NCBI GenBank assembly: GCA_003568415.1
Contig: PWXV01000169.1
Location: 1-59,673 of the forward strand
DNA length: 59,673 bases
Origin: Ignavibacteriales bacterium
GTDB lineage: Bacteria; Bacteroidota; Ignavibacteria; T3Sed10-11
Direction of reading: 5' to 3'
In this document: positions 8,483 to 54,566 of the stretch, piece after piece
Layout of the letters: the number at the start of each line of letters is the position of its first letter
Numbering within the stretch: the stretch's first letter is position 1
Notes under the pieces: model-generated
Database searches by the model: none
Told to the model about the DNA's origin: nothing
What the model saw: the letters and a program-made list of their open reading frames with translations, nothing else
Position numbers and translations under genes: made by a program

Positions 8483-8507
8483 AGCTTTCCTTCAATTGTT
8501 TAATGTA

Positions 8508-8975
8508 TTATGCAAATTGCATTGTTTCTTCCTGGCGGAAGGCTTCGATGATGTCTTCCGGTGATGTCAGATTCAATAATTTATTTCTGAATGATTCATT
8601 ATTCATAAGCCGGGATACGCGGCTCAGTAATTTAATGTGTGAGCCTACCATACTTTCTTTACCAACGAGAATAAAAACCAATCTGATCGGTTTGTCGTCG
8701 AGGGCATCGTAATCGATGGGATGTTCGGTGATCCCGAAACCGGCGACGATATCCGATACCGAATCACTTTTACCGTGAGGAATTGCGAAACCATTACCGA
8801 CACCCGTTGACATAACCTGCTCACGCTCAAAAACGGCACGACGGACACTTTCAAAATCAAGTATCTTATCCGATTTACCGATAAGCTGTAACATTGCTTC
8901 GATAATATCATTTTTTGATTTTCCCTTAACCGAAGCATCTACAAATTGAGCGTTGAGATAATCAGTAATCTTCAT
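8508..8975 (-). CDS. PTS EIIA-type protein (fructose/nitrogen PtsN family)
   Basis: A 155-residue EIIA-2 domain protein. The phospho-acceptor histidine is His67 in NGFAIPHGKSDSV, followed by the conserved hydrophobic strand LVFILVGKE. There is no fused EIIB or EIIC domain and no sugar permease nearby, so a regulatory (PtsN-like) role is more likely than sugar transport. It lies 25 bp upstream of hisS and 30 bp downstream of the fused nucleotidyltransferase/mutase, all on the minus strand. Confidence 0.87.
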   Translation of the reverse strand: MKITDYLNAQFVDASVKGKSKNDIIEAMLQLIGKSDKILDFESVRRAVFEREQVMSTGVGNGFAIPHGKSDSVSDIVAGFGITEHPIDYDALDDKPIRLVFILVGKESMVGSHIKLLSRVSRLMNNESFRNKLLNLTSPEDIIEAFRQEETMQFA

Positions 8976-9005
8976 TTGATACCTTTCGTAGTCCCATCGA
9001 CAATA

Positions 9006-11510
9006 TCATGCATTTTGGTCACGCCAGGATATAATTTTCTGTTCGTATTCTTCAAGGAGCTCCTGACACCGGTTTTTATCGGGTGATTCTATGTTTATGT
9101 GAAACAATGGTCGTTCTTTATCCGGTATCAATAAAACGGATGTACTTGATGTATCAACATGGATTTTAACACCATCGACCAATTCACGGTCGTATCGTTC
9201 CGAGTCTTTCATCAAATTCCGCATCACCCGTCCTTTCGCTTCCCACGGGCATTTAATATTTCTCTTTAATATGTGATGCAGGGGGATTTGCTCATGTAAT
9301 TCACCCAGATGTGTTCCGGTTTTTGCCATCATTTCAAGAATTTTTGTCACCGCAAACATCGCGTCCGTTGCAAAAAGAAAATCGGTAAAGATAAAACCAC
9401 CCTTTGTGCCACCGACAAACGAAACCGAATCTTTAAGTGCCGCTTCCATCATTGCTAAATGACTGTTTTTTGTAAGAATCACTTCGACATTGTGTTCCTT
9501 TGCGACATCGAAAATTACATTGGGAGTGGTGACCGGAACCGCAATTTTTCTGGTGTCGGGATGTGTCATTAAATATAACTTTGTCACCAATACAAGCAGG
9601 CGGTCGGCATCAAATTCTTTACCGGATTCATCGACAACGAAAATTTTCTCACCGCCTGCATCGATCAAAAATCCCGCATCATATTCTATAGACGTTACTA
9701 TGTGCGAAAGCTGTGTCATTGCATAATCGAATTCGGATTTATCCCGTGTTAATTTTTGCGGGTCGAGATATGCATTGAGTGAAACAACCTGCATCTTCAT
9801 TTTTCCCAGTATGTTCGGGAAGATAGTTGCACTGCTGCCATTTGAATAATCCACAACAATGCGAAACTTTGCCTGGTTAATGGAATCAAAATCGATATGT
9901 TCCTGGAAGCGTTGCACGTAGCTTTCAGTCACACGCTCGGGGAAATTGATCGATCCGACATGGGTGTATGACGGCCGGTGAACATCTTCACCGAAGAAAA
10001 AGCGATCGATTTTCTTTGTTTTCTTTGACGGCAAATCGCGTCCATCACTATCAAAAAATATAATATCGGTTAAATTTTTGTCGAATGGTGATTTGCGTAT
10101 GTGAAAACCGCTCACTTCTTTGCCGGAGCTGAGAGCGTGCCGTACCATCGGAATTGGAGTTGCCCGCAAATCGTTAACGCTTACACCGGCGGAAATAAGA
10201 CCGCAGATGAGAGCGCGGTTCATCATTCGCGAAACATTATCCGAATCGCGGGAGGTAACAACAAGCTTCCCTTTACCAATAAATGTTCCATATGCTGTTC
10301 CTAATTTTGCTCCAAATTCCGGATTCATTTCAACATTTGAAATGCCGGTGATGCGTGCATCCGCAAACAATTCACGCAGCCATTTATCTTCCTGAACCAA
10401 ACTTCGCGAGAGCGATGCCCCGTCTTCAACTTCCTTATTTGGCCAGAGTTTTATGTTTGAGAACAGACGGGCTCGCCTGCCTATTTTGCAATTGTCACTG
10501 ATAAATACATTGTCGTCGATAACTGCTGCTTCACCCACCGAAGTTTTTGCACCGATGACACTCGAAGATATTTGTGCATTTGATCCGATGAATGCATTGT
10601 CCCATAACACCGAGTTAGTTATGACCGCACCATCTTCGATTACGCAATTATTACCGATAACGACATTTGATAATTTTACATTTTGTTGTATTTGTAAATT
10701 GTCACCGAGTATTATACTACCGTGTAAATTCTTTTCATCGGTTTGCAGTAAAGTGTTATTGCCTTTGACCAGACCGCCAGGATTTTTCAGATAGGGTACT
10801 TTCACATCGCCGCGCAGCGCATCAAGGTGGGCTTCCTGATATTCATTCAGGTTACCGATATCACGCCAGTAGCCGTTTGCCACATAACCATACAGCGCTT
10901 TCTTTTCGCGTAGCAACTGCGGGAAAATATCGTTACTCCAATCGCGTTCTTCTTTGGGTGGCATCATATCCAGTATTTCCGGCTCGATAATGTATATACC
11001 GGTATTTATTGTATCGCTGAATACTTCTCCCCAGGAGGGTTTTTCCAGGAACCGTATGATGCGGCCATCATCGCCTGTAATAACAATCCCGAACTGAAGC
11101 GGATTTACTGCGTGTGTGAGCACGATCGTGGCAAGTGATTTCTTCTCCTCGTGATATTTAACGGCAGCGGTAATGTCAATATCGGTCAATACATCGCCGC
11201 TGATTAATACGAAGCGTTCATCAAGATACTGTTGAGCATTTTTCACACTGCCGGCGGTACCATAATCTTCGGTTGCCTCAATGTGGTGCATCGTTACACC
11301 GAAATTCGATCCGTTTCCAAAATATCCCGTTATTGCCTCCGGTTGAAAGAAGAGTGTTGATACGATTTCTTGTATTCCGTGTTCACGTAGAAGATCGACG
11401 ATATGATGCATCATCGGTTTGTTCATAACAGGAACCATCGGCTTCGGAATGTTCATAGTAAGAGGACGAAGACGCGTACCGAATCCACCTGCCATAATGA
11501 CTGCTTTCAT
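9006..11510 (-). CDS. Fused NDP-sugar pyrophosphorylase / phosphomannomutase-like protein
   Basis: An 834-residue fusion. Residues 1-230 form a nucleotidyltransferase (AGGFGTRLRPLT signature, KPMVPV, and the SGDVL metal site). About 250-370 form a left-handed beta-helix of hexapeptide repeats. About 380-834 form a phosphohexomutase-like region. It would couple hexose-1-phosphate formation to NDP-sugar synthesis (GDP-mannose or similar) for the envelope or glycoconjugates. The mutase part lacks the usual phosphoserine TASHNP motif; the matching area reads SRDSDNVSRMMNRAL, as I recall for this fused group. Mutase activity is therefore uncertain. Confidence 0.85.
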   Translation of the reverse strand: MKAVIMAGGFGTRLRPLTMNIPKPMVPVMNKPMMHHIVDLLREHGIQEIVSTLFFQPEAITGYFGNGSNFGVTMHHIEATEDYGTAGSVKNAQQYLDERFVLISGDVLTDIDITAAVKYHEEKKSLATIVLTHAVNPLQFGIVITGDDGRIIRFLEKPSWGEVFSDTINTGIYIIEPEILDMMPPKEERDWSNDIFPQLLREKKALYGYVANGYWRDIGNLNEYQEAHLDALRGDVKVPYLKNPGGLVKGNNTLLQTDEKNLHGSIILGDNLQIQQNVKLSNVVIGNNCVIEDGAVITNSVLWDNAFIGSNAQISSSVIGAKTSVGEAAVIDDNVFISDNCKIGRRARLFSNIKLWPNKEVEDGASLSRSLVQEDKWLRELFADARITGISNVEMNPEFGAKLGTAYGTFIGKGKLVVTSRDSDNVSRMMNRALICGLISAGVSVNDLRATPIPMVRHALSSGKEVSGFHIRKSPFDKNLTDIIFFDSDGRDLPSKKTKKIDRFFFGEDVHRPSYTHVGSINFPERVTESYVQRFQEHIDFDSINQAKFRIVVDYSNGSSATIFPNILGKMKMQVVSLNAYLDPQKLTRDKSEFDYAMTQLSHIVTSIEYDAGFLIDAGGEKIFVVDESGKEFDADRLLVLVTKLYLMTHPDTRKIAVPVTTPNVIFDVAKEHNVEVILTKNSHLAMMEAALKDSVSFVGGTKGGFIFTDFLFATDAMFAVTKILEMMAKTGTHLGELHEQIPLHHILKRNIKCPWEAKGRVMRNLMKDSERYDRELVDGVKIHVDTSSTSVLLIPDKERPLFHINIESPDKNRCQELLEEYEQKIISWRDQNA

Positions 11511-34583: not shown

Positions 34584-34648
34584 AATTAAGACTATTTTAT
34601 CTTGAAATAGATGCGTGATTTTTGCTCAACTTTATACGGAGTAATGTA

Positions 34649-35983
34649 ATGTTAGTAAAACAGGTTCCTACATTATTTTTATCTTTTTTTCTTGCTTCAT
34701 TGATAGTACTTACCGGATGTGGACCAACCGAAGAACCGCCGGAACCCTTAACCGAAGACGAAACCGATCCTGCCCGCTTTGGAGAGTTTTATCCGTTCCA
34801 ATATGAAACCTTTATGAGAACAAAGGAGATGGAGGAAACAGAATACGGCGGTTCATATAACTATTCATATGTTGAGCGATTTCCTCAGTTGGAAAGAATA
34901 TTCGGCGGTGTCGGCTATGGACTTGATTATAATCGTGCCCGCGGACATTATTGGGCGATGAAGGATATGCTTTCTATTGAACGTTCTCCGAAATTTGTAA
35001 CGTGTTTTACCTGTAAATCTGCAGATGCTCCGAGGCTTATGGAGGAAATGGGGGATGCATATTATACAACTCCAATGGAAGAGTTTCTGGATGTCGAAGC
35101 CGAAATCGAACGACACGATGAACATCCCTATATGGATGTAAAGCATGCCTCAATTTCGTGCAGCGACTGTCATCATCCCGAAACAATGGATCTCAGAATA
35201 ACACGCCCGGCTTTAAAAGAAGCATTGGAACGCCGCGGCACTCTTGTTGAAGAATTAAGCCGCAATGATATGCGATCAATGGTTTGTGCACAGTGCCACG
35301 TTGAGTATTATTTCCATCCCGATCCGGATAACCGCAAGGTCATATTCCCGTGGGACGAAGGATTCGATCCGCAAGATATGGAACAGTATTGGGATTATCG
35401 CTTTACCGATATGGAACAATTTACGGAAACAGGTTTTTATGATTATCGACATCCGGACGTCGATGTTCCGTTACGTATTATTCAACACCCTGAATTCGAG
35501 ATGTTCCAGGGAGGTACCCATCAAACAAACAACGTAAGTTGTGCCGACTGCCACATGCCGGTGATCGAGGTTGACGGGCGACGGGAAATATCACATCACA
35601 TTACGAGTCCGTTAAAATATATTGAAGAAACTTGCCAGCAATGTCACAATCAAACAGCAGAGTATCTTGAAGGAAGAGTACATGCTGCTCAGGAACGAAC
35701 ATTGCGTATGCGAAGTCGTGCGGAGAATGCTATGCTTGCAGCACTTGATGTGCTCGAAGCTGCAAAAAATGCAAGTGGTGTAGATCAGGAACTCTTGTTT
35801 GAAGCCCGCCGTGCTTATACCGGTGCACATCTCAGATGGCAATATGTAAAAGCTGAGAACAGTATTGGTTGGCATAACCCGCAGAAAGCATTGGAGGCAC
35901 TTGGTGAATCGATCGATTTTGCCCATCAGGCACGAGATAAGGCGAACCGTGCTATGGGTGGAAGGGGGGTAGCCGGGCGATGA
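34649..35983 (+). CDS. nrfA: Pentahaem cytochrome c nitrite reductase NrfA, lipoprotein form
   Basis: Periplasmic ammonia-forming nitrite reductase of 444 residues. Five c-type haem sites are present: the active-site haem with lysine ligand CFTCK (about residue 118), then CSDCH, CAQCH (in the classic CAQCHVEYYF), CADCH and CQQCH. The signal peptide ends in the lipobox LTGC (Cys24), so the enzyme is lipid-anchored. The late ENSIGWHNPQ corresponds to the conserved C-terminal His ligand region. The ATG at 34649 is used because CGGAG lies upstream. It overlaps its tetrahaem partner gene by 4 nt. Confidence 0.93.
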   Translation: MLVKQVPTLFLSFFLASLIVLTGCGPTEEPPEPLTEDETDPARFGEFYPFQYETFMRTKEMEETEYGGSYNYSYVERFPQLERIFGGVGYGLDYNRARGHYWAMKDMLSIERSPKFVTCFTCKSADAPRLMEEMGDAYYTTPMEEFLDVEAEIERHDEHPYMDVKHASISCSDCHHPETMDLRITRPALKEALERRGTLVEELSRNDMRSMVCAQCHVEYYFHPDPDNRKVIFPWDEGFDPQDMEQYWDYRFTDMEQFTETGFYDYRHPDVDVPLRIIQHPEFEMFQGGTHQTNNVSCADCHMPVIEVDGRREISHHITSPLKYIEETCQQCHNQTAEYLEGRVHAAQERTLRMRSRAENAMLAALDVLEAAKNASGVDQELLFEARRAYTGAHLRWQYVKAENSIGWHNPQKALEALGESIDFAHQARDKANRAMGGRGVAGR

Positions 35984-42209: not shown

Positions 42210-45200
42210 ATGAAACTTAAACGTCGTGATTTTCTCCGGCTAACAGCACTTGTTACAGCGTCGGCTGCAGCGGGGTTCTATCACACCGACAAATTGCTCG
42301 GGGTACCTGCTTCGGTGAAGGATGTACCGGTGGGGCAATGCCGGTACTGTGCGATCGGGTGTACCACGATGGCTCAGGTTGAACTCGATCAGGATGGCAA
42401 AGTAATGAATGTGCTGGGCATTAAAGGAGATTTGAACAGCTCCGTTAATCGTGGTGTCCTCTGTACGAAGGCATTTTATCTGCATCGAGCACTCGAGTAT
42501 GCAGACCGTCCGAAGCGTCCACTCATCAGGCGCGAATGGATAAACACCGAGACCGGTAAACCCGATCTTGCGAATTCACCGCGCGTACGTGAGGGAAGAA
42601 CCACAAAGGATGCATATGGCTTGAAGCCGTCTGAAGAAGATATGAAAGAAAATTTTGTTGCCGTTTCGTGGGAAGATGCACTTGAATTTATTACATCTTC
42701 AGTAGAGAAATCAATAAACGAGCACGGGAAATTCAGTGTCGGCTATTACGGCAGTGGACAGGCAGGTACCGAAGAGACGCACATCTTTAACAAAACCTTT
42801 AAAGGCGGCGGTATGCTTGCCAACAACACGATTGAGGGCCAACCGAGGACGTGTATGGCGAGCGCTGTGGTCGGGTATTTATACGCCTTCGGTAAAGACG
42901 AGCCGTACGGTTCCTTGAACGATCTCGATGTACCGGATCCGGATTTCGGCAAGCACGCAGATACCTATTTCCTTGTCGGTAACAATACTGCCGAGGCACA
43001 TCCGATTTTATTTAACAGGATTGCCGCGGTAAAAAATAAAAATCCCGATGAGGTGAAAGTTATACTGGCAGATCCGCGTAAAACACGATCGGGAACGATA
43101 TCGGATCTCTGGCTACCGCTGGCAAGTGGTCGCGATCTTGCATTACTTAACTCGATGACGTATGTCATCGCAACCGAACTTGATAAAGCCAAGTACGATG
43201 TGGAGAATGGAACCGTCGAAGCGGAGTGGAAGTATCTCGATAAAGAATTCATTCGCCGTCACGTTAACTTCGGTATTCACGAAGATGTAAAAATGAACTG
43301 GATCAAGACCGAATACGGCGGTGTTCGTGAATCGACGTGGGATCTTGCATACTCAAATAATCCGCGCCAAACGTATCCCGATCCGAAAAAGGTATACGAA
43401 TCTGAAGAGGAAGTTGAAAAGGATCTTTACAAAGGCTTTGCCATCTTTCTGAAATTCCTCGAAGATTACAGTCCTGAAAAGGTTGCAGACCTGATCTTTG
43501 ACGGGGAAAGTCCGCAGCGCTACGACCGGGAAACACGTACGTGGTCAAAGATCGGCGGTGAAGAGGCGATCCGCCTTGTGGCGAAATGGTTTGCCGAAGG
43601 ATATACCACAACAACGTGGTGTATGGGCATTAACCAGAAACTGCAGGGAGTATGGTCGAATGCGACCCTTCATATGCTTCACCTCATAACAGGGAAAGCA
43701 TGTAAGCCGGGTCGTCACGCATTCAGCTTTACCGGTCAACCCAACGCCTGCGGTGGTATACGTGCACCGGGTGCATTGTGCCACGCGCTGCCATATGGCC
43801 GGTTGGTCGCAAATCCGGTTCATCGTGCACACGTTGAAGGTATATGGAAGAGACGGGTGGAAAACTACCTCCAGGCAAAAGGAGTGTCGAGTTCACTTAT
43901 CCGGGAAGAGGTGGATAAGATTGCAGTTCATCCGCAGCCCGGTCCACATACCATGGAAATGTTCCGCCGGTATGCTGCAGGTCAGATTAAAGTAATGTTC
44001 ACATCGACCGTAAACCCGGGCGCAAGCTTACCGTATGCATATCCTTATCGGTTAGCCTGTGCCGCGGCACATCAGGGAGATCCGTTCCCTGTTACAGCTG
44101 TGCTTGAAGCATATCCAAACGCGACGACACAAGTTGCGGATATTGTCTTCCCTGCTTCGAGCTGGTATGAGAAAGAGTTCTCTTACGGAAACCTTGAGCG
44201 AAGGCATCAGCTCATACGAAAGGTGCTTGATTTCCCGGGCGAGACGTTACCCGATTCGGTTATCTTTGGTATGATAATCAGGCGGCTTGAAGATAAAGGT
44301 CTCGTACCAAAAGGTCACGTTGCTCAGTTCTGGCCGGAAGAGTACGGTGACGATTGGGTACAGAAAACCGTCGAGGATTCAAATAAAGAAGGATGGATGC
44401 GGAAATTTACCGCCAACATATGGGAAGAATTGCAGGAGCTTACCGGCGGTACCGGTTACGATATGACTGGTATGGATCGTGAGAAATTAATCGAACGTAA
44501 CTGGGGATACCGGCAGCCGTTTCCCAAGGAATATCATACCGATGCCGATATCAAAGCAAGATACGATAAGTACGAATCCAGTATTCAGTATGCATATCCC
44601 TACGATCCGATTGTTGATAACCGGACACAGGGATATATAAACAATCTGAAAAAATGGAACCCGCAATATGCATCGTATATCGAAAAACGGCTGGAAGAAG
44701 AGAAGCGGGATACCGATTATCACCGGAAACATAATGTTCCGGAAGGTTGGTACGTCAGCTTCTATCACGCGAATCCGTTCCATCACGGTATGGTCGATGA
44801 CCCGACGCAGGACGGTGGCAGATTGTTTGTCGTAGATGGACGTGCAACTGCCTGGGCCAATCCGTGGTGGGCATGCAAATGGGATGGTAAAGAGTTCAAG
44901 AAATATGATCGAGTTCAGATCACCGAACGACGGTTTAATGAAGAGAAAATACAAGAAAACGTGACCGCGCCGTTCGATGTCGTTCAGTCATATGAAGGAT
45001 CGGTTATTGGTAATCCCGACCGTGATAAGAATGCATTGCTCAGTATTGCATTGAGTCCTGGTGAATTCCCCGGCGTCCGGCAAGCGTATCGTCATAATGG
45101 TAATGAAATCGTCATTTACGATACAAGGGAATACAATATCGGTGCGTGTACAGGTCGTATACTTGAACACTGGCACACCGGAAGTATGACGACCCGGGTG

Positions 45201-45536
45201 CGTGAACTTGCCCGTGCGGCACCGGGAGCGTTTGTCGAGATCAATTCTGAACTCGCGGAGGAGCTTGGTATCAGTTCAGGCGACCGGGTTATTGTGGAGG
45301 CGTTGCGCGGTCAGATCGAGCTCGAAGCGCGTATTCTCGATGCAACACGAATGACCGGTGGTCCTCGCAAGGATTACGTGTTCATTCCGTTCTTCGATGA
45401 GAAGAAACTGATCAATATGATATTGCCCGACCGGTTCGATCCGTTCAGCTTCCAGATGGATTACAAGATGTTTGCTGTGAAGCTTCGGAAAGGAACTATG
45501 CGTGAAACCCAGGCGGTGCCGGGTAAGGTGATATAG
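42210..45536 (+). CDS. napA: Periplasmic nitrate reductase NapA, oversized form
   Basis: Molybdopterin oxidoreductase of 1108 residues, with a Tat signal (KRRDFLRL at 4-11). The [4Fe-4S] site is Cys44, 47, 51 and 85. The Mo-ligand Cys (about 215) lies in RTCMASAVVGY, the NapA pattern. Further NapA-like blocks are GINQKLQGVWSNATLHMLHL, FTGQPNACGG (about 508) and TGRILEHWHTGSMTTRV (about 980). E. coli NapA has about 830 residues, so roughly 280 extra residues are spread over several insertions, most between the TGQP and EHWHTG blocks. Nitrate is the best-supported substrate; another oxyanion cannot be excluded. Confidence 0.88.
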   Translation: MKLKRRDFLRLTALVTASAAAGFYHTDKLLGVPASVKDVPVGQCRYCAIGCTTMAQVELDQDGKVMNVLGIKGDLNSSVNRGVLCTKAFYLHRALEYADRPKRPLIRREWINTETGKPDLANSPRVREGRTTKDAYGLKPSEEDMKENFVAVSWEDALEFITSSVEKSINEHGKFSVGYYGSGQAGTEETHIFNKTFKGGGMLANNTIEGQPRTCMASAVVGYLYAFGKDEPYGSLNDLDVPDPDFGKHADTYFLVGNNTAEAHPILFNRIAAVKNKNPDEVKVILADPRKTRSGTISDLWLPLASGRDLALLNSMTYVIATELDKAKYDVENGTVEAEWKYLDKEFIRRHVNFGIHEDVKMNWIKTEYGGVRESTWDLAYSNNPRQTYPDPKKVYESEEEVEKDLYKGFAIFLKFLEDYSPEKVADLIFDGESPQRYDRETRTWSKIGGEEAIRLVAKWFAEGYTTTTWCMGINQKLQGVWSNATLHMLHLITGKACKPGRHAFSFTGQPNACGGIRAPGALCHALPYGRLVANPVHRAHVEGIWKRRVENYLQAKGVSSSLIREEVDKIAVHPQPGPHTMEMFRRYAAGQIKVMFTSTVNPGASLPYAYPYRLACAAAHQGDPFPVTAVLEAYPNATTQVADIVFPASSWYEKEFSYGNLERRHQLIRKVLDFPGETLPDSVIFGMIIRRLEDKGLVPKGHVAQFWPEEYGDDWVQKTVEDSNKEGWMRKFTANIWEELQELTGGTGYDMTGMDREKLIERNWGYRQPFPKEYHTDADIKARYDKYESSIQYAYPYDPIVDNRTQGYINNLKKWNPQYASYIEKRLEEEKRDTDYHRKHNVPEGWYVSFYHANPFHHGMVDDPTQDGGRLFVVDGRATAWANPWWACKWDGKEFKKYDRVQITERRFNEEKIQENVTAPFDVVQSYEGSVIGNPDRDKNALLSIALSPGEFPGVRQAYRHNGNEIVIYDTREYNIGACTGRILEHWHTGSMTTRVRELARAAPGAFVEINSELAEELGISSGDRVIVEALRGQIELEARILDATRMTGGPRKDYVFIPFFDEKKLINMILPDRFDPFSFQMDYKMFAVKLRKGTMRETQAVPGKVI

Positions 45537-45544
45537 AAAAACAA

Positions 45545-45577
45545 AGACCTGACAGGTTTTCAAAACCTGTCAGGTCT
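45545..45577. repeat. Perfect 16-bp palindrome between napA and napG
   Basis: AGACCTGACAGGTTTT and its exact complement are separated by one base. It sits 8 bp after the napA stop and 21 bp before napG. It could be a repetitive palindromic element of the kind spread in FCB-group genomes, an mRNA-stabilising hairpin, or a partial terminator. There is no T-run at the end. Confidence 0.9.
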
Positions 45578-45598
45578 ATTAAAAATATTGAAATAATT

Positions 45599-46420
45599 TT
45601 GAAAAAACGTTCATTCATAAAATCAATAACAACGTTTCTCGGTGGACTATTAACAGCCGGGTTGTCCTCAATCCAGGCAAGAGGCAACGGACAAGAGCTA
45701 CCTGAAATACCCGAGGACGAGGCAAACGATGCATTGGAACGTCCGTTGCATTCGTTTCTGAATAAATATGATATCGTACCGCGAAGAGGACGCCCGGCAT
45801 CATATATACGACCTCCGGGAGCGTTGTTGCATGAAAGAAGATTTCAATCGCAGTGTATAAGCTGCGGTGCATGTGTGAACGTTTGTCATATAGAGAAATA
45901 TAACGCAGTTGTTCTTGACGGTGCAGGCGATGTGAGAAATTTCGGAACACCGTATGTAAAAGATATGCGGGATTTCCCATGCACATTGTGTATGAAGTGT
46001 CCCGATGTTTGTCCGACCGACGCACTGTCGCCGATTGAAATAGACGATGTTGAGATGGGCATGGCATTAATTGACTATTCAATATGTCTCGGATGGAACG
46101 GTGATGTTTGCCTTTCGTGCAGTAAGGCGTGTCCGCTCGGTGAACGGGTATTTGATTTTTATCATGGTGAATGGGGAAATCAGCCCGATATCAATCAGGA
46201 TTGTGTCGGCTGTGGTTTATGTGTGAAGTTTTGTCCGGTAGGTGGTTCGGCTATCGCAGTCGTGACCCCGAAACAATATGAACAACTGAAGAATGAATTT
46301 TTACATGAACGGGATTCAATCCTTCAGATGGATCATATGGAGCGATACGATTTAATTTACGGTGAGAATTTACCAAAGCTAATGCAGCGGGGTACGATTG
46401 AAGAACGTTGGTATAACTAA
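45599..46420 (+). CDS. napG: Ferredoxin-type protein NapG
   Basis: A 273-residue periplasmic iron-sulfur protein that with NapH forms a quinol dehydrogenase feeding NapA. It has an N-terminal Tat-like segment (KKRSFIKS with a KR pair in place of RR) and four [4Fe-4S] motifs: CISCGACVNVCH, CTLCMKCPDVCP, a variant CLGWNGDVCLSCSKACP and CVGCGLCVKFCP. The start is a TTG at 45599 without a clear Shine-Dalgarno; no better start lies nearby. It overlaps napH by 23 nt. Confidence 0.9.
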   Translation: MKKRSFIKSITTFLGGLLTAGLSSIQARGNGQELPEIPEDEANDALERPLHSFLNKYDIVPRRGRPASYIRPPGALLHERRFQSQCISCGACVNVCHIEKYNAVVLDGAGDVRNFGTPYVKDMRDFPCTLCMKCPDVCPTDALSPIEIDDVEMGMALIDYSICLGWNGDVCLSCSKACPLGERVFDFYHGEWGNQPDINQDCVGCGLCVKFCPVGGSAIAVVTPKQYEQLKNEFLHERDSILQMDHMERYDLIYGENLPKLMQRGTIEERWYN

Positions 46421-47270
46421 ATTGTCCGTCATCAGACGAGCAGTAATGCTCGGTATCCTGACAGTGTTCGTTTTACAGTTTTTCAGGATTGATGCACTTA
46501 TCGGCGGATTATCCGGAGCTGATATATTCGGCATTATAAAGATGCTCGATGTATTTGCGTTTATCGAGACAGTTGCAGCATCGTTGAGCATTACATGGAC
46601 GGTAACAACGTCAGTATTGGCAGTTGTTATAATTTATCTGTTATTCGGCCGGTCATTTTGCGGCTGGGTATGTCCGTACGATCTGTTTTTTTCCTGGGTT
46701 CAAAAAATACGCCGGATTGTATTCCGGGCAAAAAGAAATAAACCCATTGTTGCTGAACGTGCGGGAAAACTACATAAAGCAGGATATATACTTATTGGAT
46801 TGCTGCTCATTGCATCAGTCATTATCGGGATACCGTTCTTTACAAAGTATTTTTCGCATTTGACGAATTTCTTCAGAATGATATCCACAGGTGTGTATTA
46901 TTCATCGGATGTGCCGGTGAGTGTCTACATGCTTGTTATCTCGGCGGGTATTGTTGCAGCGTTTTTAATTCTGGAATTGATATTTCCCCGCTATTGGTGT
47001 CGTTACTTTTGTCCGGTTGGCAAGGTGTACGGTGGTTTTAATAAAGTGAGCGTTATTAAATTGCGTTTTAAAGATATGGAAACCTGTACACAATGTTATC
47101 TCTGTCAGAGTAATTGCTATATGGATGTGCCGCTTACGGAATTCATCGATCAAATGAAAAATAACGAGGTGAAAACCGCGACACTGCGGTCAACCGATTG
47201 TATCTATTGTGGTTTGTGTGAGGAACATTGCGGTACCCAAGCGAATATAAAGATTAGTATGAAACCTTAA
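46398..47270 (+). CDS. napH: Membrane ferredoxin-type protein NapH
   Basis: A 290-residue inner-membrane protein with about four to five membrane helices. Two cytoplasmic Cys motifs (CGWVCPYDLFF and CRYFCPVGKVYG) and two C-terminal [4Fe-4S] motifs (CTQCYLCQSNC and CIYCGLCEEHCG) match NapH. It should oxidise quinol and pass electrons to NapG. The start is uncertain: TTG at 46398 keeps the basic N-terminus; other options are TTG at 46422 and ATG at 46446. Confidence 0.9.
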   Translation: MKNVGITKLSVIRRAVMLGILTVFVLQFFRIDALIGGLSGADIFGIIKMLDVFAFIETVAASLSITWTVTTSVLAVVIIYLLFGRSFCGWVCPYDLFFSWVQKIRRIVFRAKRNKPIVAERAGKLHKAGYILIGLLLIASVIIGIPFFTKYFSHLTNFFRMISTGVYYSSDVPVSVYMLVISAGIVAAFLILELIFPRYWCRYFCPVGKVYGGFNKVSVIKLRFKDMETCTQCYLCQSNCYMDVPLTEFIDQMKNNEVKTATLRSTDCIYCGLCEEHCGTQANIKISMKP

Positions 47271-47294
47271 AATCAATAAAAAAGTGAGGTTATT

Positions 47295-47549
47295 ATGATA
47301 GTCGCGAGTGGATTTGTTGAAGTCAATTCATCCGATGATGTAGTCAACGTCAAACATGAATTATTCGACCGCGGAATTGAAATCCCTGAAGGTGACAAGG
47401 AAAAACTGGTATTTCTGATCGAACGAGAGACTGAACCGGAAATTAAAAATCTGCTTCAAGAGATGCAGCATATTGAGGGTGTCAGATCGGTTTTTCTTAA
47501 TTATTACAGTTTACCCGGTGCCGATAAAGGACCCGATCTTCAGATTTAA
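47295..47549 (+). CDS. napD: NapD-type maturation chaperone
   Basis: An 84-residue cytoplasmic ferredoxin-like-fold protein. NapD binds the Tat signal of NapA and holds export until the cofactor is inserted. It begins MIVASGFVEVNSSDD and has the spaced IEGVRSVFLNYYSL strand of the family. Encoded between napH and the second nrfA with a GAGG site. Confidence 0.82.
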   Translation: MIVASGFVEVNSSDDVVNVKHELFDRGIEIPEGDKEKLVFLIERETEPEIKNLLQEMQHIEGVRSVFLNYYSLPGADKGPDLQI

Positions 47550-47593
47550 CATTGCTATGTAACAGTTAATTATATCATAGAAGGAGAACCACA

Positions 47594-48934
47594 ATGAGTG
47601 AAAATAAATCAAAGCGATACCTCATTTTCGGAGGTGTTGTAGTTCTGACAATTGCTGTACTTGCACTGCTGGTAACGATCATTGAACGTGTGCATGAAGG
47701 GCGGGTCGATTACTTAATGATCACCAAGATCGAGCCGCTTGAGCCCGATCCTGATAAATGGAAAGTAAATTTCACGAAACACTACGATGATTATATGAAA
47801 ACATACCGGACTGCCGACCTGGTCGATTATCCTAAGTTTGGAAAGTACGGTGGTCCCGTGCAGTTTTCAAAGCTGGAAGAATATGAACATCTGAAACGTT
47901 TGTGGGCCGGATATCCTTTTTCCCTTGACTATAATCAAGCGCGGGGTCATATGAATGCGCTGCAGGATATGCTTGATTCGGAGCGGTTGGGAGATGATAA
48001 ACCGGGCACCTGTATGAGCTGTAAGAGTCCGGAGGTGCCGTTGTTTATGGAGGAATACGGGATAGAAACATTTTACCGAACTCCTGTCCGAGAGCTCGTG
48101 GACGTCCATGGATTTGAACATTCAGTTTCCTGTGCAGATTGCCATGATGCAGAGACAATGGACTTAAGGATCTCCCGACCGGCGTTTACAGAAGCGATGG
48201 AACGGAGGGGAGTTGACCTGTCGCAGGCAACACGGCAGGAAATGAGAAGTTATGCTTGTGCACAATGCCATGTTGAGTATTATTTCAAAGGAGAGGGAAA
48301 TTATTTAACCTTCCCCTGGGATTACGGACTTACAATCGATGATATCGAAGAATATTTCGACGAGCGGGATTTTGCCGATTGGGTACATGCCGAAACCAAG
48401 GCACCGATGATCAAAATCCAGCATCCGGAATTTGAATTGTGGTCGACAGGTGTCCACAGCAGAGCGAATGTCTCCTGTGCGGACTGTCATATGACATATA
48501 AACGAGAAGGTGCCGTGAAAATAACCGATCACTGGATTCGGTCACCGTTGGTAAATATATCCCAATCCTGTCTCACATGTCATCGTCAGGATGAGGAGGA
48601 GATGCGAGACCGGGTAATTCAAATACAGGAACGTACCAAGAAATTGCTTGCACGAACGGAGGATGCATTGATCGATGCTATCGATGCAATAGTCGAGGCT
48701 ATGGAGGCAGGTGCAAGTGATGCGGCTCTGGAAGAAGCACGGCAATATCATAGAAGTTCACAAATTCGATGGGATTTCATTTTTTCGGAGAACAGTACCG
48801 GTTTCCATAGTCCGCAGGAATCCGCCAGAATACTTGGCGATGCCATCGATTATGCACGGAAAGCAGAGTTTGCCGCATTTCGTGCTATGGTGGGTGCGGA
48901 TCCAATACGAGTAACATTTCAAAATAACCAATGA
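47594..48934 (+). CDS. nrfA: Pentahaem nitrite reductase NrfA, membrane-anchored form
   Basis: A second ammonia-forming nitrite reductase, 446 residues. Haem sites are CMSCK (active site, about residue 138), CADCH, CAQCH (again CAQCHVEYYF), CADCH and CLTCH, with ENSTGFHSPQE near the C-terminus. The N-terminal hydrophobic helix (about 9-30) lacks a clear cleavage site or lipobox, so it is probably an uncleaved anchor. It differs widely from the first NrfA outside the motifs, so the two are old paralogues or separately acquired. It has GAAGGAG upstream and nrfH follows after 10 bp. Confidence 0.94.
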   Translation: MSENKSKRYLIFGGVVVLTIAVLALLVTIIERVHEGRVDYLMITKIEPLEPDPDKWKVNFTKHYDDYMKTYRTADLVDYPKFGKYGGPVQFSKLEEYEHLKRLWAGYPFSLDYNQARGHMNALQDMLDSERLGDDKPGTCMSCKSPEVPLFMEEYGIETFYRTPVRELVDVHGFEHSVSCADCHDAETMDLRISRPAFTEAMERRGVDLSQATRQEMRSYACAQCHVEYYFKGEGNYLTFPWDYGLTIDDIEEYFDERDFADWVHAETKAPMIKIQHPEFELWSTGVHSRANVSCADCHMTYKREGAVKITDHWIRSPLVNISQSCLTCHRQDEEEMRDRVIQIQERTKKLLARTEDALIDAIDAIVEAMEAGASDAALEEARQYHRSSQIRWDFIFSENSTGFHSPQESARILGDAIDYARKAEFAAFRAMVGADPIRVTFQNNQ

Positions 48935-48944
48935 GAAAATCGTT

Positions 48945-49382
48945 ATGAAAAAGTTACAAATGAGTTTGATTATCTTTATTGCGATTCTCATCGGTGCCGG
49001 TGCCTATACGGTTTATTATGGACAGGGATATTCATATCTCTCCGACGATCCATCTGCGTGTATGAATTGTCACGTTATGGAGGATATGTATCTTACCTGG
49101 GAAACATCATCACACCGGGATGTAACGTGTAACGAATGCCACGTACCGCACGGGTTTATCCGGCAATATACGGCAAAAGCTACCGACGGTATTTACCACG
49201 CAGCCGTGTTTACCTTTGATGAGCCACAGGTAATCCGTTTACGGGAGTCGCGCTATGAACGAATATCGGAAAATTGTATCCGGTGTCATGAGTCGATGGT
49301 TGCATTCATCAACCGGGGGGACGGACAACTTTGTACCGATTGTCATATAGGTGTAGGACATCCATTGCAGTATAAAAAATAA
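48945..49382 (+). CDS. nrfH: Tetrahaem quinol dehydrogenase NrfH
   Basis: A 145-residue NapC/NirT-family cytochrome with one N-terminal membrane helix (about 5-25). Four haem sites are CMNCHVM (residue 39, with the Met ligand spacing typical of NrfH), CNECH (about 62), CIRCH (about 111) and CTDCH (about 129). It anchors NrfA and feeds it electrons from menaquinol. The gene lies after nrfA here, the reverse of the common nrfHA order. Confidence 0.93.
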   Translation: MKKLQMSLIIFIAILIGAGAYTVYYGQGYSYLSDDPSACMNCHVMEDMYLTWETSSHRDVTCNECHVPHGFIRQYTAKATDGIYHAAVFTFDEPQVIRLRESRYERISENCIRCHESMVAFINRGDGQLCTDCHIGVGHPLQYKK

Positions 49383-49412
49383 TTTCGAGAATCGCATGTG
49401 ATTTAATTATAG

Positions 49413-49706
49413 TATAAAAATAACGACCTGCCGGATGCGGTCAGTCATAATACTGATAGATACGATTTATTTGTTTTTTTATGAACCACCTGCACGTATC
49501 CGGCATGGGACGTATATTCTCCGAGTTATATAACCTAACGCTCCGGCTATGGTTATATAAACGATGAGTTTCAGAACTCCTCCGGTCACGTACCGGAGCA
49601 CGGCAGCGAAGGAAACGCCGCTGCCTCCCGGCTTTGGAAAGGAGGAAACAGGAGGAAGCAGTAGGATTAAACCCTATCCTGGCCAAAGCCGGGATAGGGT
49701 TTTTTT
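49413..49706 (+). ncRNA. Structured leader RNA with alternative terminator/antiterminator
   Basis: A TATAAA at 49413-49418 is followed by a string of inverted repeats: TGCCGGAT (49429-49436) with ATCCGGCA (49498-49505), TTATATAACC/GGTTATATAA (49526-49560), GAGTT/AACTC, CTCCGGT/ACCGGAG (49580-49598) and GGCAGC/GCTGCC (49602-49625). TCCCGGCTTTGG (49626-49637) is the exact complement of 49683-49694, which is also the 3' arm of the terminator, so the two helices exclude each other. This is the layout of a riboswitch or attenuator. I do not recognise the class. The mobA gene downstream makes a molybdenum-cofactor-type switch the first candidate. Confidence 0.6.
49670..49706 (+). terminator. Rho-independent terminator within the leader
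   Basis: A 14-bp stem (AACCCTATCC..GGC with GCC..GGATAGGGTT, one G-T wobble) around a CAAA loop, followed by seven Ts. Its 3' arm can instead pair with 49626-49637. Confidence 0.88.
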
Positions 49707-49811
49707 ATGAAATGATATGTAACACGAAATGAAGCGAAGGAAGCGTGGTGGGATTTTCGCGTACTTACAAGAAACGAAAAACTTTTTCGACATACATCTA
49801 TTTTATAATCC

Positions 49812-49856: not shown

Positions 49857-50171
49857 ATGGAAGATTTGCCAAGACTCTTTAAAAAATTCAAGGAAGAAAA
49901 TCCGGAAATTACCGAATCGTACGAGAAACTCGGTAGTACTGTACACAATGCGGGTCCGCTGGACGATAAAACACGTGCTCTGATAAAAATTGCACTCTCA
50001 ACAGGTGCAGGACTCGAAGGTGCAGTTCACGCACATGTACGAAGAGCGCTTGCAGCGGGGATTACCAAAGAAGAAATATTACATACGATATTTCTTGCTC
50101 TTCCGACCCTCGGTTGGCCGAGAATGCACGCGGCATGGACCTGGGCCAATGATATCTTTGAAGACAGATGA
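49857..50171 (+). CDS. Carboxymuconolactone decarboxylase/AhpD-like protein
   Basis: A 104-residue all-helical AhpD-fold protein. It keeps the family pattern DDKTRALIKIALSTGAGLEG, AHVRRALAAGITKEEI and the C-terminal Trp-rich helix, but lacks the CxxC motif of peroxidase-active AhpD (the site reads GAVHAHV). A redox role of AhpD type is therefore unlikely. It overlaps mobA by 4 nt. Confidence 0.82.
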   Translation: MEDLPRLFKKFKEENPEITESYEKLGSTVHNAGPLDDKTRALIKIALSTGAGLEGAVHAHVRRALAAGITKEEILHTIFLALPTLGWPRMHAAWTWANDIFEDR

Positions 50172-50743
50172 CCAGGCGATATGATACCATATCTGCCGTG
50201 GTTCTCGCCGGCGGACAGAGCAGGAGAATGGGTGCAAATAAAGCGTTGCTCCGTATCGATGATATAACATTTATTGCACGTATTATCAATACTCTGCAGG
50301 AACGGTTCCCCGGGATTTATATCAGTGCGAATAAACAGGAGGAGTATGAAGTTCTCAAACGTCCTGTTATAACCGATATCTTTACCGGCTACGGACCTCT
50401 GGCAGGCATTCATGCTGCTCTGAATACAATTCCAACAAATTATGTATTCACTGTACCGTGCGATGTACCATTCATTTCAACCGGTGTCGTCGATATGCTT
50501 GTCGATGCAATAGAGTCCGATACTATAGTGATCGCATATGACGGTGAGCGTACACATCCGTTAATTGGAATATATCCCCGGTCGGCGTGTAAATCGCTTG
50601 AAGAATATCTGCAAAACAATGAAAGACAGGTTCACAAGTTTTTGGAAATGTCAAAACATAGACGAGTTGATATTGCAAAGTTTGCCGAAGCTGTAAAAAA
50701 TATTAATACCGTTGAAGAATATAAAAGGATAGTGGGGCGATGA
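50168..50743 (+). CDS. mobA: Molybdenum cofactor guanylyltransferase
   Basis: A 191-residue nucleotidyltransferase that attaches GMP to Mo-molybdopterin, giving the bis-MGD cofactor needed by NapA. The signature VVLAGGQSRRMGANKALL and the metal-binding VPCDVPFIS are present. It lies about 0.8 kb downstream of the nap/nrf unit and overlaps neighbours on both sides by 4 nt, so the four-gene unit is tightly coupled. Confidence 0.9.
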   Translation: MTRRYDTISAVVLAGGQSRRMGANKALLRIDDITFIARIINTLQERFPGIYISANKQEEYEVLKRPVITDIFTGYGPLAGIHAALNTIPTNYVFTVPCDVPFISTGVVDMLVDAIESDTIVIAYDGERTHPLIGIYPRSACKSLEEYLQNNERQVHKFLEMSKHRRVDIAKFAEAVKNINTVEEYKRIVGR

Positions 50744-52455
50744 ACTATAACCGTCATAATGATGTCTGGTTAAAAGCTGCCGTGATCGGGAGTGTCTGGG
50801 GTGCGTCGGAGATCGTCTTCGGAAGTTTTCTGCATAATCTGCGCATTCCCTTCAGCGGTAATTTGCTGACGGCAATTGGTATTATCATTATGATCGCCGG
50901 TCACCGGATGTGGCCCGAGAAAGGATTATTCTGGCGTGCTGGCCTGATTTGTGCAGCAATGAAAACCCTTTCCCCGAGTCCGGTTATCTTCGGTCCGATG
51001 CTTGCAATTTTTATGCAATCGGTTTCAATGCAGATCGGTGTTCTCCTTGGCGGCAGGACGGGGATCGGCTACCTCATCGGTGGCGGTCTTGCGATGGCGT
51101 GGAATATCGTTCAAAGAATTCTTACCGCATTGCTTGTATATGGTGCCTCTATCATAGAACTCTATCAAAGTCTTGTCGATTATCTCAATCAGAATATCGG
51201 AATACCGCTATCGGGATACTGGACACCGGTCGGGACATTGTTCGGATTGTTTTTTGCAGGAGGAGTGGTCGCTGCAACTGCGGGAATTCTTATCTCCCGG
51301 GCAGCATTATCAGGCAAAACCACCCTTAACTTTGGAATGCCTACCGATAAGGATTCACCAATGAAATCCTCGTTTGAGTCACATCAATCATTCTCAGCAA
51401 TCCGGTTGGCCGGAATTTTTGTATTATTATTCGGTGGCTTGTATGTAATATATGCATTTCCACTTTATGTCTCTGCAATGTATGTTGCAGGTTTTCTCAC
51501 ATTAATTACCCTGTACGACAGACGACTTATTTACCGCTTTGTGTACAAACCGGGGTTCTGGATCGGTTTGTTGATGATATCGATGCTGACCGGCTTCTTC
51601 CTGGGCGGTACAAAGGGAAACGCGGCTTTTACCATGGACGGGTTGCGTATTGGTATTGAAATGAATTTTCGTGCGATTGTCGTGGTAGCGGGATTCGGTG
51701 CTGTGAGTGTACAGTTGCGGAATCCTGTTCTCATGCAATGGTTCGAAAACAAACGGATGAAAAATTTCCTTTCCGCCGTGCGCGTTTCATTTCAGACGAT
51801 TCCGTTCATTATTGCTATGATACCGAAGGGAAGAGCATGGCGAAATCCGGTCACCGTTCTTTCGGGTCTGATACAACAGATGGACGACTACCTCGTAATG
51901 ATGAGAAAAGAACATCAAAAAAGAAATACGGTATTTATTGTTACCGGTAAACGGGGTACTGGAAAAACTACCGTTACCCGGCAGATCGTGGATAAACTGC
52001 GGGATAGCGGATATGCCGTGTCCGGAATAATCCAGCCTGAATATATAGCAAACGGTAAGCGTGCAGGATTTTATGTTGAAGATATAGCAACCGGTAAACG
52101 TTTACTATTATGTACACGCGATAGTTCAATATCAAACCGGAAGCCGGTATTGTTTAATTTCAGCAATGATGCTTTTACATTTGGTGAAGCAGCGCTCGCT
52201 GTTTCAAGGATACGTCATGCCGATATCGTTGCGATAGATGAGATCGGTCCGCTTGAACTTGAAGATCAGGGATGGTCGAATGCAATACATTCACTACGTT
52301 CGCAATGGTCAGGCCCGATGATCTGGGTGGTGCGTGAAAAATTGATCGATGATGTTGTGAAGAAATGGAATATCGAAGACTACACGGTCTTTGATATAAA
52401 TTATACGGATGTAATTACAATTGCAGTACATATAGAAGAAAAGATGAATAGTTAA
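50740..52455 (+). CDS. Membrane protein fused to a THEP1-like NTPase
   Basis: A 571-residue fusion. About residues 1-190 hold five to six membrane helices and resemble a small-solute membrane component. About 215-390 hold a second membrane block whose late part (EMNFRAIVVVAGFGAVSVQLRNP) recalls the transmembrane (T) component of ECF/CbiQ transporters. About 395-571 form a P-loop NTPase of THEP1 type with Walker A VTGKRGTGKTT and Walker B AIDEIGPLEL. No ABC signature is present. Translational overlap with mobA suggests a link to molybdenum or its cofactor. The domain readings are mine by eye; function is not established. Confidence 0.65.
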   Translation: MNYNRHNDVWLKAAVIGSVWGASEIVFGSFLHNLRIPFSGNLLTAIGIIIMIAGHRMWPEKGLFWRAGLICAAMKTLSPSPVIFGPMLAIFMQSVSMQIGVLLGGRTGIGYLIGGGLAMAWNIVQRILTALLVYGASIIELYQSLVDYLNQNIGIPLSGYWTPVGTLFGLFFAGGVVAATAGILISRAALSGKTTLNFGMPTDKDSPMKSSFESHQSFSAIRLAGIFVLLFGGLYVIYAFPLYVSAMYVAGFLTLITLYDRRLIYRFVYKPGFWIGLLMISMLTGFFLGGTKGNAAFTMDGLRIGIEMNFRAIVVVAGFGAVSVQLRNPVLMQWFENKRMKNFLSAVRVSFQTIPFIIAMIPKGRAWRNPVTVLSGLIQQMDDYLVMMRKEHQKRNTVFIVTGKRGTGKTTVTRQIVDKLRDSGYAVSGIIQPEYIANGKRAGFYVEDIATGKRLLLCTRDSSISNRKPVLFNFSNDAFTFGEAALAVSRIRHADIVAIDEIGPLELEDQGWSNAIHSLRSQWSGPMIWVVREKLIDDVVKKWNIEDYTVFDINYTDVITIAVHIEEKMNS

Positions 52456-52517
52456 AATATTTATTTGAGATGGAAGAAATGAAATACCGGAGAATAGGAA
52501 TCGTCAAATATCAATTC

Positions 52518-52544
52518 AACGCAGAGGCCGCAAAGAACGCAGAG
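52518..52544 (+). repeat. Two direct AACGCAGAG units upstream of the receptor gene
   Basis: AACGCAGAG occurs at 52518-52526 and 52536-52544, with GCCGCAAAG between. Similar Ade/Gua-rich 'CGCAGAG' arrays are common between genes in several phyla. It is the reason the upstream part of this open frame (NAEAAKNAEK) is not taken as coding. Confidence 0.55.
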
Positions 52545-52565
52545 AAAGCGATAATTTCTAAAACT

Positions 52566-54566
52566 ATGCTTTCATATATGCTCAAAACAGTATCAATACT
52601 ATTAATAACTTTATTTGGAACAGACAATCTTTTTTCATCCTCACCACCGGATACGGTTAAAGGATCGTTTTCGTTAGGTGAGATCGAAGTTATCGGTACA
52701 CCGGTACCCAGGACTCCCGTGACAGTCGACCGGGTGATTGAGCCGTCGGCAAAGAATCCGGACAAACCGACGATTGCAGATGCAGTCGGGCGATTGCCCG
52801 GTGTGCATCTTGCCCACGTTGGTGAGCGAAATGAAACGGCAGTGTATGTACGCGGATTTGATGTAAAGCGTGTGCCGCTATTTCTTGATGGTATTCCCAT
52901 CTACGTGCCGTATGACGGATATCCCGATTTCGGCCGCTTTCTGATATATGATATTTCGGCGGTTGTGGTATCGAAGGGATACAGCTCGGTTCTGTACGGT
53001 CCCAACACGATGGGGGGCGCGATCAACATGGTATCGCGTAAACCGGAAGAAACCTTGGAGGGAACCGCGGGCATTTCCTATGCATCGGGGAATTCCCGGA
53101 GATCGTTTATTAATGTCGGTTCGCGGCACGAAAACTGGTATCTCCAGGCAGGCGGAGTTTATTCTGCATCGGATTATTTTCGCGTTTCGGGACGTAATGG
53201 AGATATTGCAGGTAAGAAAAGAGATAATGCATTTGAGAACGATGTGAAGGGGAGTTTTAAGATCGGATTTACACCCAACAGATTTGATGAGTATGCAATC
53301 GGCTATTCGTATCAAAGCGGTGAGAAGGGTACACCCGTCTATCTCGGTTCTCATCCGGCAATGCCGGTACGCTACTGGCGATGGCCCGAATGGAATAAAG
53401 AAAGCATATATTTCACATCCACTACCCGTGTATTCGGGTTGCATCGCGTCAAGACGAGATTGTATTACGATACGTTTGAGAATGCCCTTTACAGTTATGA
53501 CGATGATACCTATTCAACAATGAATATGGGGCGTTCTTTCCGGAGTTATTATAATGATTACACCTATGGCGGGTCGGCAGAGATGTCGGTAGATGCCGGT
53601 TCATTTGGAAGTATACGTACCGCAGTTCATTATAAAAAGGATGTTCACCGGGAACGGCAGGATGATGAACCGCAGCTCACTTTTGCCGATGAAATTCTCT
53701 CGGCGGCGGTTGAGATATCGGCACCCGTTGCCCGGGATGTTTCAATCGTAGCCGGTGCAAGTATTGACCGTTTGAGTTCCTATCGTGCAGAATACTTTGA
53801 CGATGATGATGGTTCCATTAACCGGTTTCCCAATACAGGTACAACTGCATTTAACCCGCAACTGGCGGCGCTTCTGGATCTTTCAGCTAATGGAACACTT
53901 CACGCATCGGTAGCACGGAAAACCCGGTTGCCTTCAATGCGCGACCGGTATTCCTTTCGACTCGGTCGTACTATTCCCAATCCATCAATAGGCGAGGAAC
54001 GGGCGACACATTTTGAGATTGGCTACTCGGATCTGCTGTTTGATGATGTGTTTATAAAAACGGAAGTGTTCTTCAGCGACGTGGATGATTTCATCATGTT
54101 CGTCACCGTTCCTGATCCCGGTAACCCGGAGCATATTGTTGAGCAGAACGTGAATATCGGCAGCTTGCACAAATACGGGTTTGATCTCCATGCATTTTAC
54201 CAACCGCACGCACGTTTTGATATCGACCTTGTATATTCATTTATTCACATCGACAACCGCACGACGGATGATAAGATCATCAACATTCCCGATCACGCCC
54301 TGCGTACGGAGACAGCATACACTTTATTCGATACATTCCGGCTGCGGTCAATCGTTACAATGTATACGGACCGGTACAGTTCGTCCGACGGCGAACGTGT
54401 TGCGGACGGGTTTATTACGGCGGATCTGCACGTTGAGTTTCCGTGGCAGGACAGGGTGACAGTGAATGCCGGCGTGAACAATCTATTCGACACGGCTTAT
54501 GAATACTTTGAAGGATACCCGCAGCCGGGGAGGAATTATTTTGCAGGGTTGAGGTTGAGGTGGTAA
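52566..54566 (+). CDS. TonB-dependent receptor
   Basis: A 666-residue outer-membrane receptor with a signal peptide (MLSYMLKTVSILLITLFGT), a TonB-box-like strand (GEIEVIGTP), a plug domain (ADAVGRLPGVHL, VRGFDVKRVPLFLDGIPI, YGPNTMGGAINMVSRK) and a 22-strand-type barrel ending in LRLRW. The ATG at 52566 is chosen because the longer frame back to 52470 runs through an intergenic repeat. It follows the mobA-NTPase genes in the same direction. The substrate is unknown; a molybdenum chelate or cofactor precursor is a contextual guess. Confidence 0.88.
   Translation: MLSYMLKTVSILLITLFGTDNLFSSSPPDTVKGSFSLGEIEVIGTPVPRTPVTVDRVIEPSAKNPDKPTIADAVGRLPGVHLAHVGERNETAVYVRGFDVKRVPLFLDGIPIYVPYDGYPDFGRFLIYDISAVVVSKGYSSVLYGPNTMGGAINMVSRKPEETLEGTAGISYASGNSRRSFINVGSRHENWYLQAGGVYSASDYFRVSGRNGDIAGKKRDNAFENDVKGSFKIGFTPNRFDEYAIGYSYQSGEKGTPVYLGSHPAMPVRYWRWPEWNKESIYFTSTTRVFGLHRVKTRLYYDTFENALYSYDDDTYSTMNMGRSFRSYYNDYTYGGSAEMSVDAGSFGSIRTAVHYKKDVHRERQDDEPQLTFADEILSAAVEISAPVARDVSIVAGASIDRLSSYRAEYFDDDDGSINRFPNTGTTAFNPQLAALLDLSANGTLHASVARKTRLPSMRDRYSFRLGRTIPNPSIGEERATHFEIGYSDLLFDDVFIKTEVFFSDVDDFIMFVTVPDPGNPEHIVEQNVNIGSLHKYGFDLHAFYQPHARFDIDLVYSFIHIDNRTTDDKIINIPDHALRTETAYTLFDTFRLRSIVTMYTDRYSSSDGERVADGFITADLHVEFPWQDRVTVNAGVNNLFDTAYEYFEGYPQPGRNYFAGLRLRW

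Follow-up and report, generated by a model that had tools for sequence, protein, structure and literature searches.

What does the structured leader upstream of the mobA operon sense, and what do the genes behind it provide? The initial annotation had proposed an unrecognised, ligand-sensing RNA at this position of the window, by which we mean the whole 59.7-kb stretch of DNA analysed, and had recommended an Infernal search against Rfam with RF01055 included. This search (Rfam 15, cmscan) gave a match to exactly that family (Molybdenum, Moco RNA motif) at 49507-49660 on the + strand, covering the full model (1-135) with 56.6 bits (E 2.2e-12), about 20 bits over the curated gathering score of 36. 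The ligand-sensing leader was thus supported, and its description as unrecognised had to be dropped; the CTCCGA at 49519-49524, noted earlier as a hint of the Moco family, proved to be the conserved CUCCGA at the start of the aptamer. RF01055 is the sole Rfam match across the window, and the window copy is the only one in the whole 4.0-Mb source genome. The remaining Rfam matches of the leader all fell far under their own cut-offs, and cobalamin was not supported as its ligand. The leader is almost certainly a Moco riboswitch, with sensing predicted from the family match, built from the following elements:

49507-49660, + strand: Moco riboswitch aptamer (RF01055), full-length cmscan match
49517-49522, + strand: P1 5' strand, pairing with 49641-49646 in the fold; conserved in 36 class loci
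49526-49560, + strand: P2 with tetraloop receptor, 49526-49535 pairing with 49551-49560 in 10 of 10 base pairs
49566-49598, + strand: P3 region, two hairpins in the fold
49602-49625, + strand: P4 with GAAA tetraloop (49612-49615), stem 49602-49608/49619-49625
49626-49640, + strand: P5, overlapping the antiterminator 5' strand
49626-49643, + strand: antiterminator 5' strand, overlapping P5 and the P1 3' strand
49669-49706, + strand: intrinsic terminator hairpin and U run, 15-bp stem; conserved in two congeners

P1, P2, P4, P5, the GAAA tetraloop and its receptor (CCUAA at 49534-49538 and UAUGG at 49548-49552, read from the sequence) were all found in the window aptamer. P3 is present as well, as it is in the aptamers of the window's congeners, placing the RNA in the P3-bearing type that is tied to Moco rather than in the P3-less type tied to the tungsten cofactor, Tuco (PMC2408646). 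The RNA from 49507 to 49710 has a folding energy of -79.6 kcal/mol, compared to -58.1 +/- 4.8 for shuffles (z -4.5). The count of at least five hairpins made in the initial annotation is reached with P2, the two in the P3 region, P4 and P5, plus an inverted repeat further upstream, and the covariation of stems that it had asked for was indeed observed in relatives. RF01055 occurs in 35 of 197 genomes of the same class, and 36 loci from these genomes, anchored on the tetraloop, gave 34 distinct sequences, among which P4 is paired in 239 of 272 cells (shuffles: mean 144, maximum 168) and each of its 8 pairs changes on both sides. In P5, CUGCC always occurs with GCAAAGG, and CUCCC or CACCC with GGAAAGG, a C-G/G-C exchange to which two apparent exceptions were motif-parser artefacts. 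The window RNA is therefore a further member of an already known riboswitch class.

The upstream inverted repeat (49429-49444/49490-49505, TGCCGGATGCG / CGTATCCGGCA) is 81% complementary over 16 nt. It is not conserved in the two congeners, and for this reason we left it out of the switch, outside which it probably lies. 11-mers related to this repeat (49429-49505) occur 8 times in the window, with 2.1 expected.

The strong terminator and the competing antiterminator read earlier from the letters were both recovered. The terminator stem (49669-49683/49688-49702) has 15 bp and a loop of 4, followed by the U run, and 49626-49637 (TCCCGGCTTTGG) is an exact 12-bp complement of 49683-49694 in its 3' arm, the core of an 18-nt inverted repeat (49626-49643/49677-49694) that is 89% complementary. 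Full folds gave -76.8 kcal/mol with the terminator and -74.6 kcal/mol with the antiterminator, a gap of only 2.2, and a transcript ending at 49694 folds most stably into the antiterminator; together, these two features provide what a co-transcriptional switch needs. Because ligand binding and the antiterminator use the same strands, Moco would be expected to favour termination, and the leader very probably acts as an OFF switch through transcription termination, a direction of control that we infer from this strand sharing. At low Moco, P5 and the P1 3' strand would pair with the terminator 3' arm and allow read-through of the operon; with ample Moco, the ligand would stabilise the aptamer, the terminator would form and the operon would be off. 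The class-wide comparison points the same way. Terminators were called downstream of 30 of 37 class aptamers, and the duplex between the P5/P1 3' strand and the terminator of its own locus averages -17.1 kcal/mol, compared to -13.6 +/- 0.56 with terminators swapped among loci, none of 2000 such permutations being as good. Sister loci thus have the same kind of locus-specific switch, by which the OFF termination switch is well supported. The initial annotation had named a transcription start downstream of 49706 as an observation that would speak against a leader; in our sequence scan, the only promoter-like sites nearby (49355-49383 and 49385-49413) are both upstream of the aptamer and weak, with such sites being no commoner than chance.

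Behind the leader, the genes follow in the order CMD, mobA, a 571-aa protein and a TonB receptor, overlapping or near-abutting:

49857-50171, + strand: CMD/AhpD-like protein, first gene of the unit (PF02627, 1.4e-17)
50168-50743, + strand: mobA, Moco guanylyltransferase (TIGR02665, 156 bits, over cut-off)
50740-52455, + strand: 571-aa protein, with three domains fused in one chain
50740-51339, + strand: its ECF S-like membrane domain (AlphaFold pLDDT 88, pTM 0.82; PDB 5edl)
51391-51918, + strand: its CbiQ/EcfT-like membrane domain, a weak assignment (PF02361 E 0.038 in homologue L041; position between S and NTPase)
51919-52455, + strand: its THEP1-type NTPase domain (PF03266, 3.5e-25; GKRGTGKT and DEIGPLEL intact)
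52470-54566, + strand: TonB-dependent outer-membrane receptor, with plug (PF07715) and beta-barrel (PF00593) domains both over cut-off; orthologues in sister operons

In the two congeners, we found no TonB receptor adjoining the unit, and one of them has the 571-aa gene split into two frames (L055/L077), a frameshift in the genome or the assembly. A CMD/AhpD-like gene often leads riboswitch operons of both types described below, as in the window (49857-50171) and 11 sister loci. Immediately upstream of the leader lies a Nap/Nrf-type cluster (42210-49382) with NapG-, NapH- and NapD-like as well as NrfA- and NrfH-like genes; it includes a 1108-aa NapA-like enzyme that scores well under the NapA equivalog cut-off. 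A further NrfA-like gene is found in the window at 34622-35983.

In the 571-aa protein, Pfam recognised only the C-terminal NTPase_1/THEP1 domain, and neither Pfam nor NCBIfam gave a match to an ABC permease (ModB). AlphaFold gave confident models, with pLDDT 84 and pTM 0.70 for the full protein, and pLDDT 88 and pTM 0.82 for its first 202 residues. The structure search with the full-length protein was dominated by the NTPase domain, which matches THEP1 (1ye8 and 2i3b). The S-like domain model aligned best in PDB with 5edl, an ECF S-component (probability 1.00, TM 0.53, E 0.17); the next match listed has a probability of 0.21, and none listed after 5edl is over 0.33. Alignment by sequence against PDB gave no useful match for the S domain and no EcfT for the T domain, and S weakly resembles PF09819. 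Among relatives, S, T and NTPase occur as separate proteins, fused as S-T-NTPase or fused as NTPase-S-T, and these varied arrangements argue for joint working of the three. In one NTPase-S-T fusion (L056, 4156-5571), the domain order differs from that of the window protein. The 571-aa protein thus resembles an ECF-type importer built as a single chain, in which a THEP1-type NTPase takes the place of the ABC ATPases; since no ABC ATPase is present, we call it ECF-like, not an ECF transporter.

We confirmed 319 relatives of this protein in GTDB genomes, the best 80 of the 319 being mostly from Bacteroidota. In other Bacteroidota, the fused protein occurs without the riboswitch, many copies standing beside NapA-like, MobA, XdhC and DUF364 genes. 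A motif screen of the best 80 fused-protein loci found the Moco riboswitch only in the two congeners, plus a weak pattern match in L138, and no cobalamin or other riboswitch was found beside the transporter family in 21 related loci. In Bacteroidales, the fused transporter repeatedly has a DUF364/DUF4213 'putative heavy-metal chelation' gene as its neighbour, in many loci about 800 bp upstream (7193-7999 in L102). In a deltaproteobacterial draft genome, a selenocysteine tRNA lies near the transporter locus (L083, 6897-6985).

Within the class, comparison of the 197 genomes revealed two kinds of Moco riboswitch operon, one with genes for Moco biosynthesis and one with the transport set. Biosynthesis-type operons contain MoaA, MoaC, MOSC, MoeA and MobA, often with CMD and a ChrA-like gene first, and the set of S, T, TonB receptor and NTPase is found downstream of Moco riboswitches in many genera. 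The transport type is present in 17 genomes and the biosynthesis type in 19, with 1 genome having both. Within one genus (g66, family f23), one species is of the biosynthesis type (G120) and one of the transport type (G153); the aptamers of both, like those found in the family relatives G140 and G165, are of the same P3-bearing type.

Biosynthesis was scored with TIGR02666 (MoaA), TIGR00581 (MoaC) and PF03453 (MoeA), and Moco enzymes with PF01568 or PF02738, excluding PF01568 matches of about 1200 aa, which we take to be probable alternative complex III subunits. MoaA and MoaC are both absent from 10 of 17 transport-type genomes, compared to 0 of 19 of the biosynthesis type. All 10 encode Moco enzymes, and 8 of them also lack MoeA. 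One of the genomes without MoaA and MoaC, G112, is a single contig in which a NapA-type enzyme immediately precedes the riboswitch; the other class genomes are for the most part incomplete drafts. G057 and G153 lack MoaA and MoaC and keep MoeA, which molybdopterin as the substrate fits as well as Moco.

The S domain, counted class-wide with an S-domain profile (A4), was found in 55 genomes, 51 of which encode a Moco enzyme. Among the 121 genomes with Moco enzymes, 34 of the 46 that lack MoaA/MoaC carry it, compared to 17 of the 75 that have them (Fisher 5e-8; the lists of enzymes, biosynthesis genes and genera behind these statistics were copied by hand from search output). The imbalance persists with one genome per genus (22 of 30 without compared to 10 of 49 with biosynthesis, p 5e-6), and when labels were shuffled within families, the observed count was reached once in 20,000. 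ModB behaves in the opposite manner, with biosynthesis present in 16 of 17 ModB genomes and a Moco riboswitch in 0 of 17. Neither biosynthesis nor the S domain was found in 12 Moco-enzyme genomes, suggesting that other routes or missed genes exist. As a separate observation, G112 carries a second set of CMD, S-T and NTPase (L149, G112:C1:760000-774000, at 8123-9969) without TonB receptor or riboswitch, adjoining a PsrA-type molybdoenzyme, NrfD and MobA. S-T paralogues similar to this second set lie near molybdoenzymes in G029, G085, G092, G164 and G065, and the S family contains paralogues whose substrates may differ. In the source genome, MoaA, MoaE and MoeA are present, MoaC was not found (assembly 95% complete) and no ModB scored over the cut-off; with these three genes the source organism probably makes Moco itself, and the system would only be a supplement.

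A molybdate importer should accompany biosynthesis, whereas an importer that replaces biosynthesis should not. The opposite distributions of the S domain and of biosynthesis, with ModB alongside biosynthesis, are thus the main argument that the transport set imports Moco or molybdopterin for salvage, a reading in which our belief and our doubt are evenly matched. Moco is oxygen-labile and usually protein-bound, which counts against import of the cofactor. So does the modelling, in that the T assignment is weak and that of S comes from fold similarity without sequence support.

The alternative that survives best, unlikely in our estimate, is that the transport set imports molybdate or tungstate like ModABC and the cell builds its own Moco. 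It would agree with the molybdate transporters found under known Moco riboswitches (PMC2408646), with the metals carried by ECF-like systems near the cobalt/nickel families together with the weak likeness of S to PF09819, and with a source genome that has MoaA, MoaE and MoeA and no ModB over the cut-off. Molybdate is, however, of no use to a cell unable to make molybdopterin, and MoaA and MoaC are missing from most set-bearing genomes, and MoeA from several, although these genomes do encode Moco enzymes; the distribution of ModB is, in addition, the reverse of that of the transport set. Less probable still is a substrate other than finished Mo-MPT, namely a molybdopterin precursor (cPMP or MPT) or a nucleotide form. 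G057 and G153, which retain MoeA without MoaA and MoaC, are compatible with it, as is the standing of cPMP as the most stable intermediate (PMC2408646), but the 8 transport-type genomes also lacking MoeA would then need another means of molybdenum insertion, and MobA in the operon suits Mo-MPT as the input. That the RNA senses Tuco instead of Moco appears improbable: some sister transport-type aptamers seem by eye to be P3-less, the Tuco-linked type, but the window aptamer and its congeners are of the P3-bearing, Moco-linked type (PMC2408646) and the neighbour is a NapA-like enzyme. Finally, the view that the leader senses no ligand and is simply an attenuator or an ordinary terminator, for which one could cite the strong terminator and an aptamer ligand that is predicted, can be practically dismissed given the full RF01055 match, the covariation and the conserved, locus-specific switch.

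Returning to import of Moco or molybdopterin, the TonB receptor would move the cofactor through the outer membrane, and the S-like and T-like domains, with the THEP1-type NTPase as driver, would move it through the inner membrane. MobA would then convert it to the guanine dinucleotide form for enzymes such as the adjacent NapA-like protein. Taken as a whole, we moderately favour a P3-bearing Moco OFF riboswitch over a predicted Moco/molybdopterin uptake operon. The aptamer, the switch, the operon and the phylogenetic pattern can be read from sequence, whereas we infer that the RNA binds its ligand, which way it acts on the operon, and what is transported. The wider proposal, that Bacteroidota and relatives have a dedicated uptake of intact Moco through a TonB receptor and an ECF-like importer with THEP1-type NTPase, turned off by a Moco riboswitch and making the whole pathway dispensable, could equally prove right or wrong. 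If true, bacteria with Moco enzymes could do without the whole Moco biosynthetic pathway, and the widespread THEP1-type NTPase would become a candidate transport motor. A study of C. elegans, an animal that obtains Moco from the bacteria it eats, named the passage of Moco across membranes as an open question (PMC9793310); the present locus offers a concrete gene set, a riboswitch reporting the likely substrate and auxotroph-like genomes. Our literature search, confined to open-access papers with subscription papers outside its scope, found no paper that connects a Moco riboswitch with a TonB or ECF-like system or that describes an importer of Moco in bacteria, and none of its top matches links THEP1 to ECF.

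The novelty lies in the controlled transport set, not in the RNA class. Moco riboswitches were described from gamma- and deltaproteobacteria, Clostridia, Actinobacteria and Deinococcus-Thermus (PMC2408646; Regulski et al. 2008), and the window RNA shares with them P1-P5, the GAAA tetraloop and receptor, the conserved CUCCGA and GGAAAGGAG, a terminator-type expression platform and mobA downstream (PMC2408646); unlike the described cases, it controls an S/T/THEP1/TonB-receptor transport set. Caldithrix abyssi, of the same superphylum, also has a Moco riboswitch at a molybdenum locus, but there the genes behind it are those for biosynthesis and for an MFS molybdate transporter (PMC5317091) instead of an ECF-like/TonB set. 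Likeness to ECF transporters (5edl, CbiMNQO) extends to the S-component-like fold, the weak CbiQ-like T domain and the small-cofactor or metal context, whereas those systems combine S, T and two ABC ATPases and the window has a THEP1 NTPase (PF03266, 1ye8) and three domains in one chain. With ModABC, which a Moco riboswitch controls in some bacteria, the set shares a part in molybdenum supply; there is no sequence relation, and ModB in the class accompanies biosynthesis and never the riboswitch. A further parallel is the BtuB-type TonB receptor and inner-membrane importer under a cobalamin riboswitch, likewise a cofactor-sensing RNA over two-membrane uptake genes, from which the window differs in its Moco aptamer and its other inner-membrane machinery.
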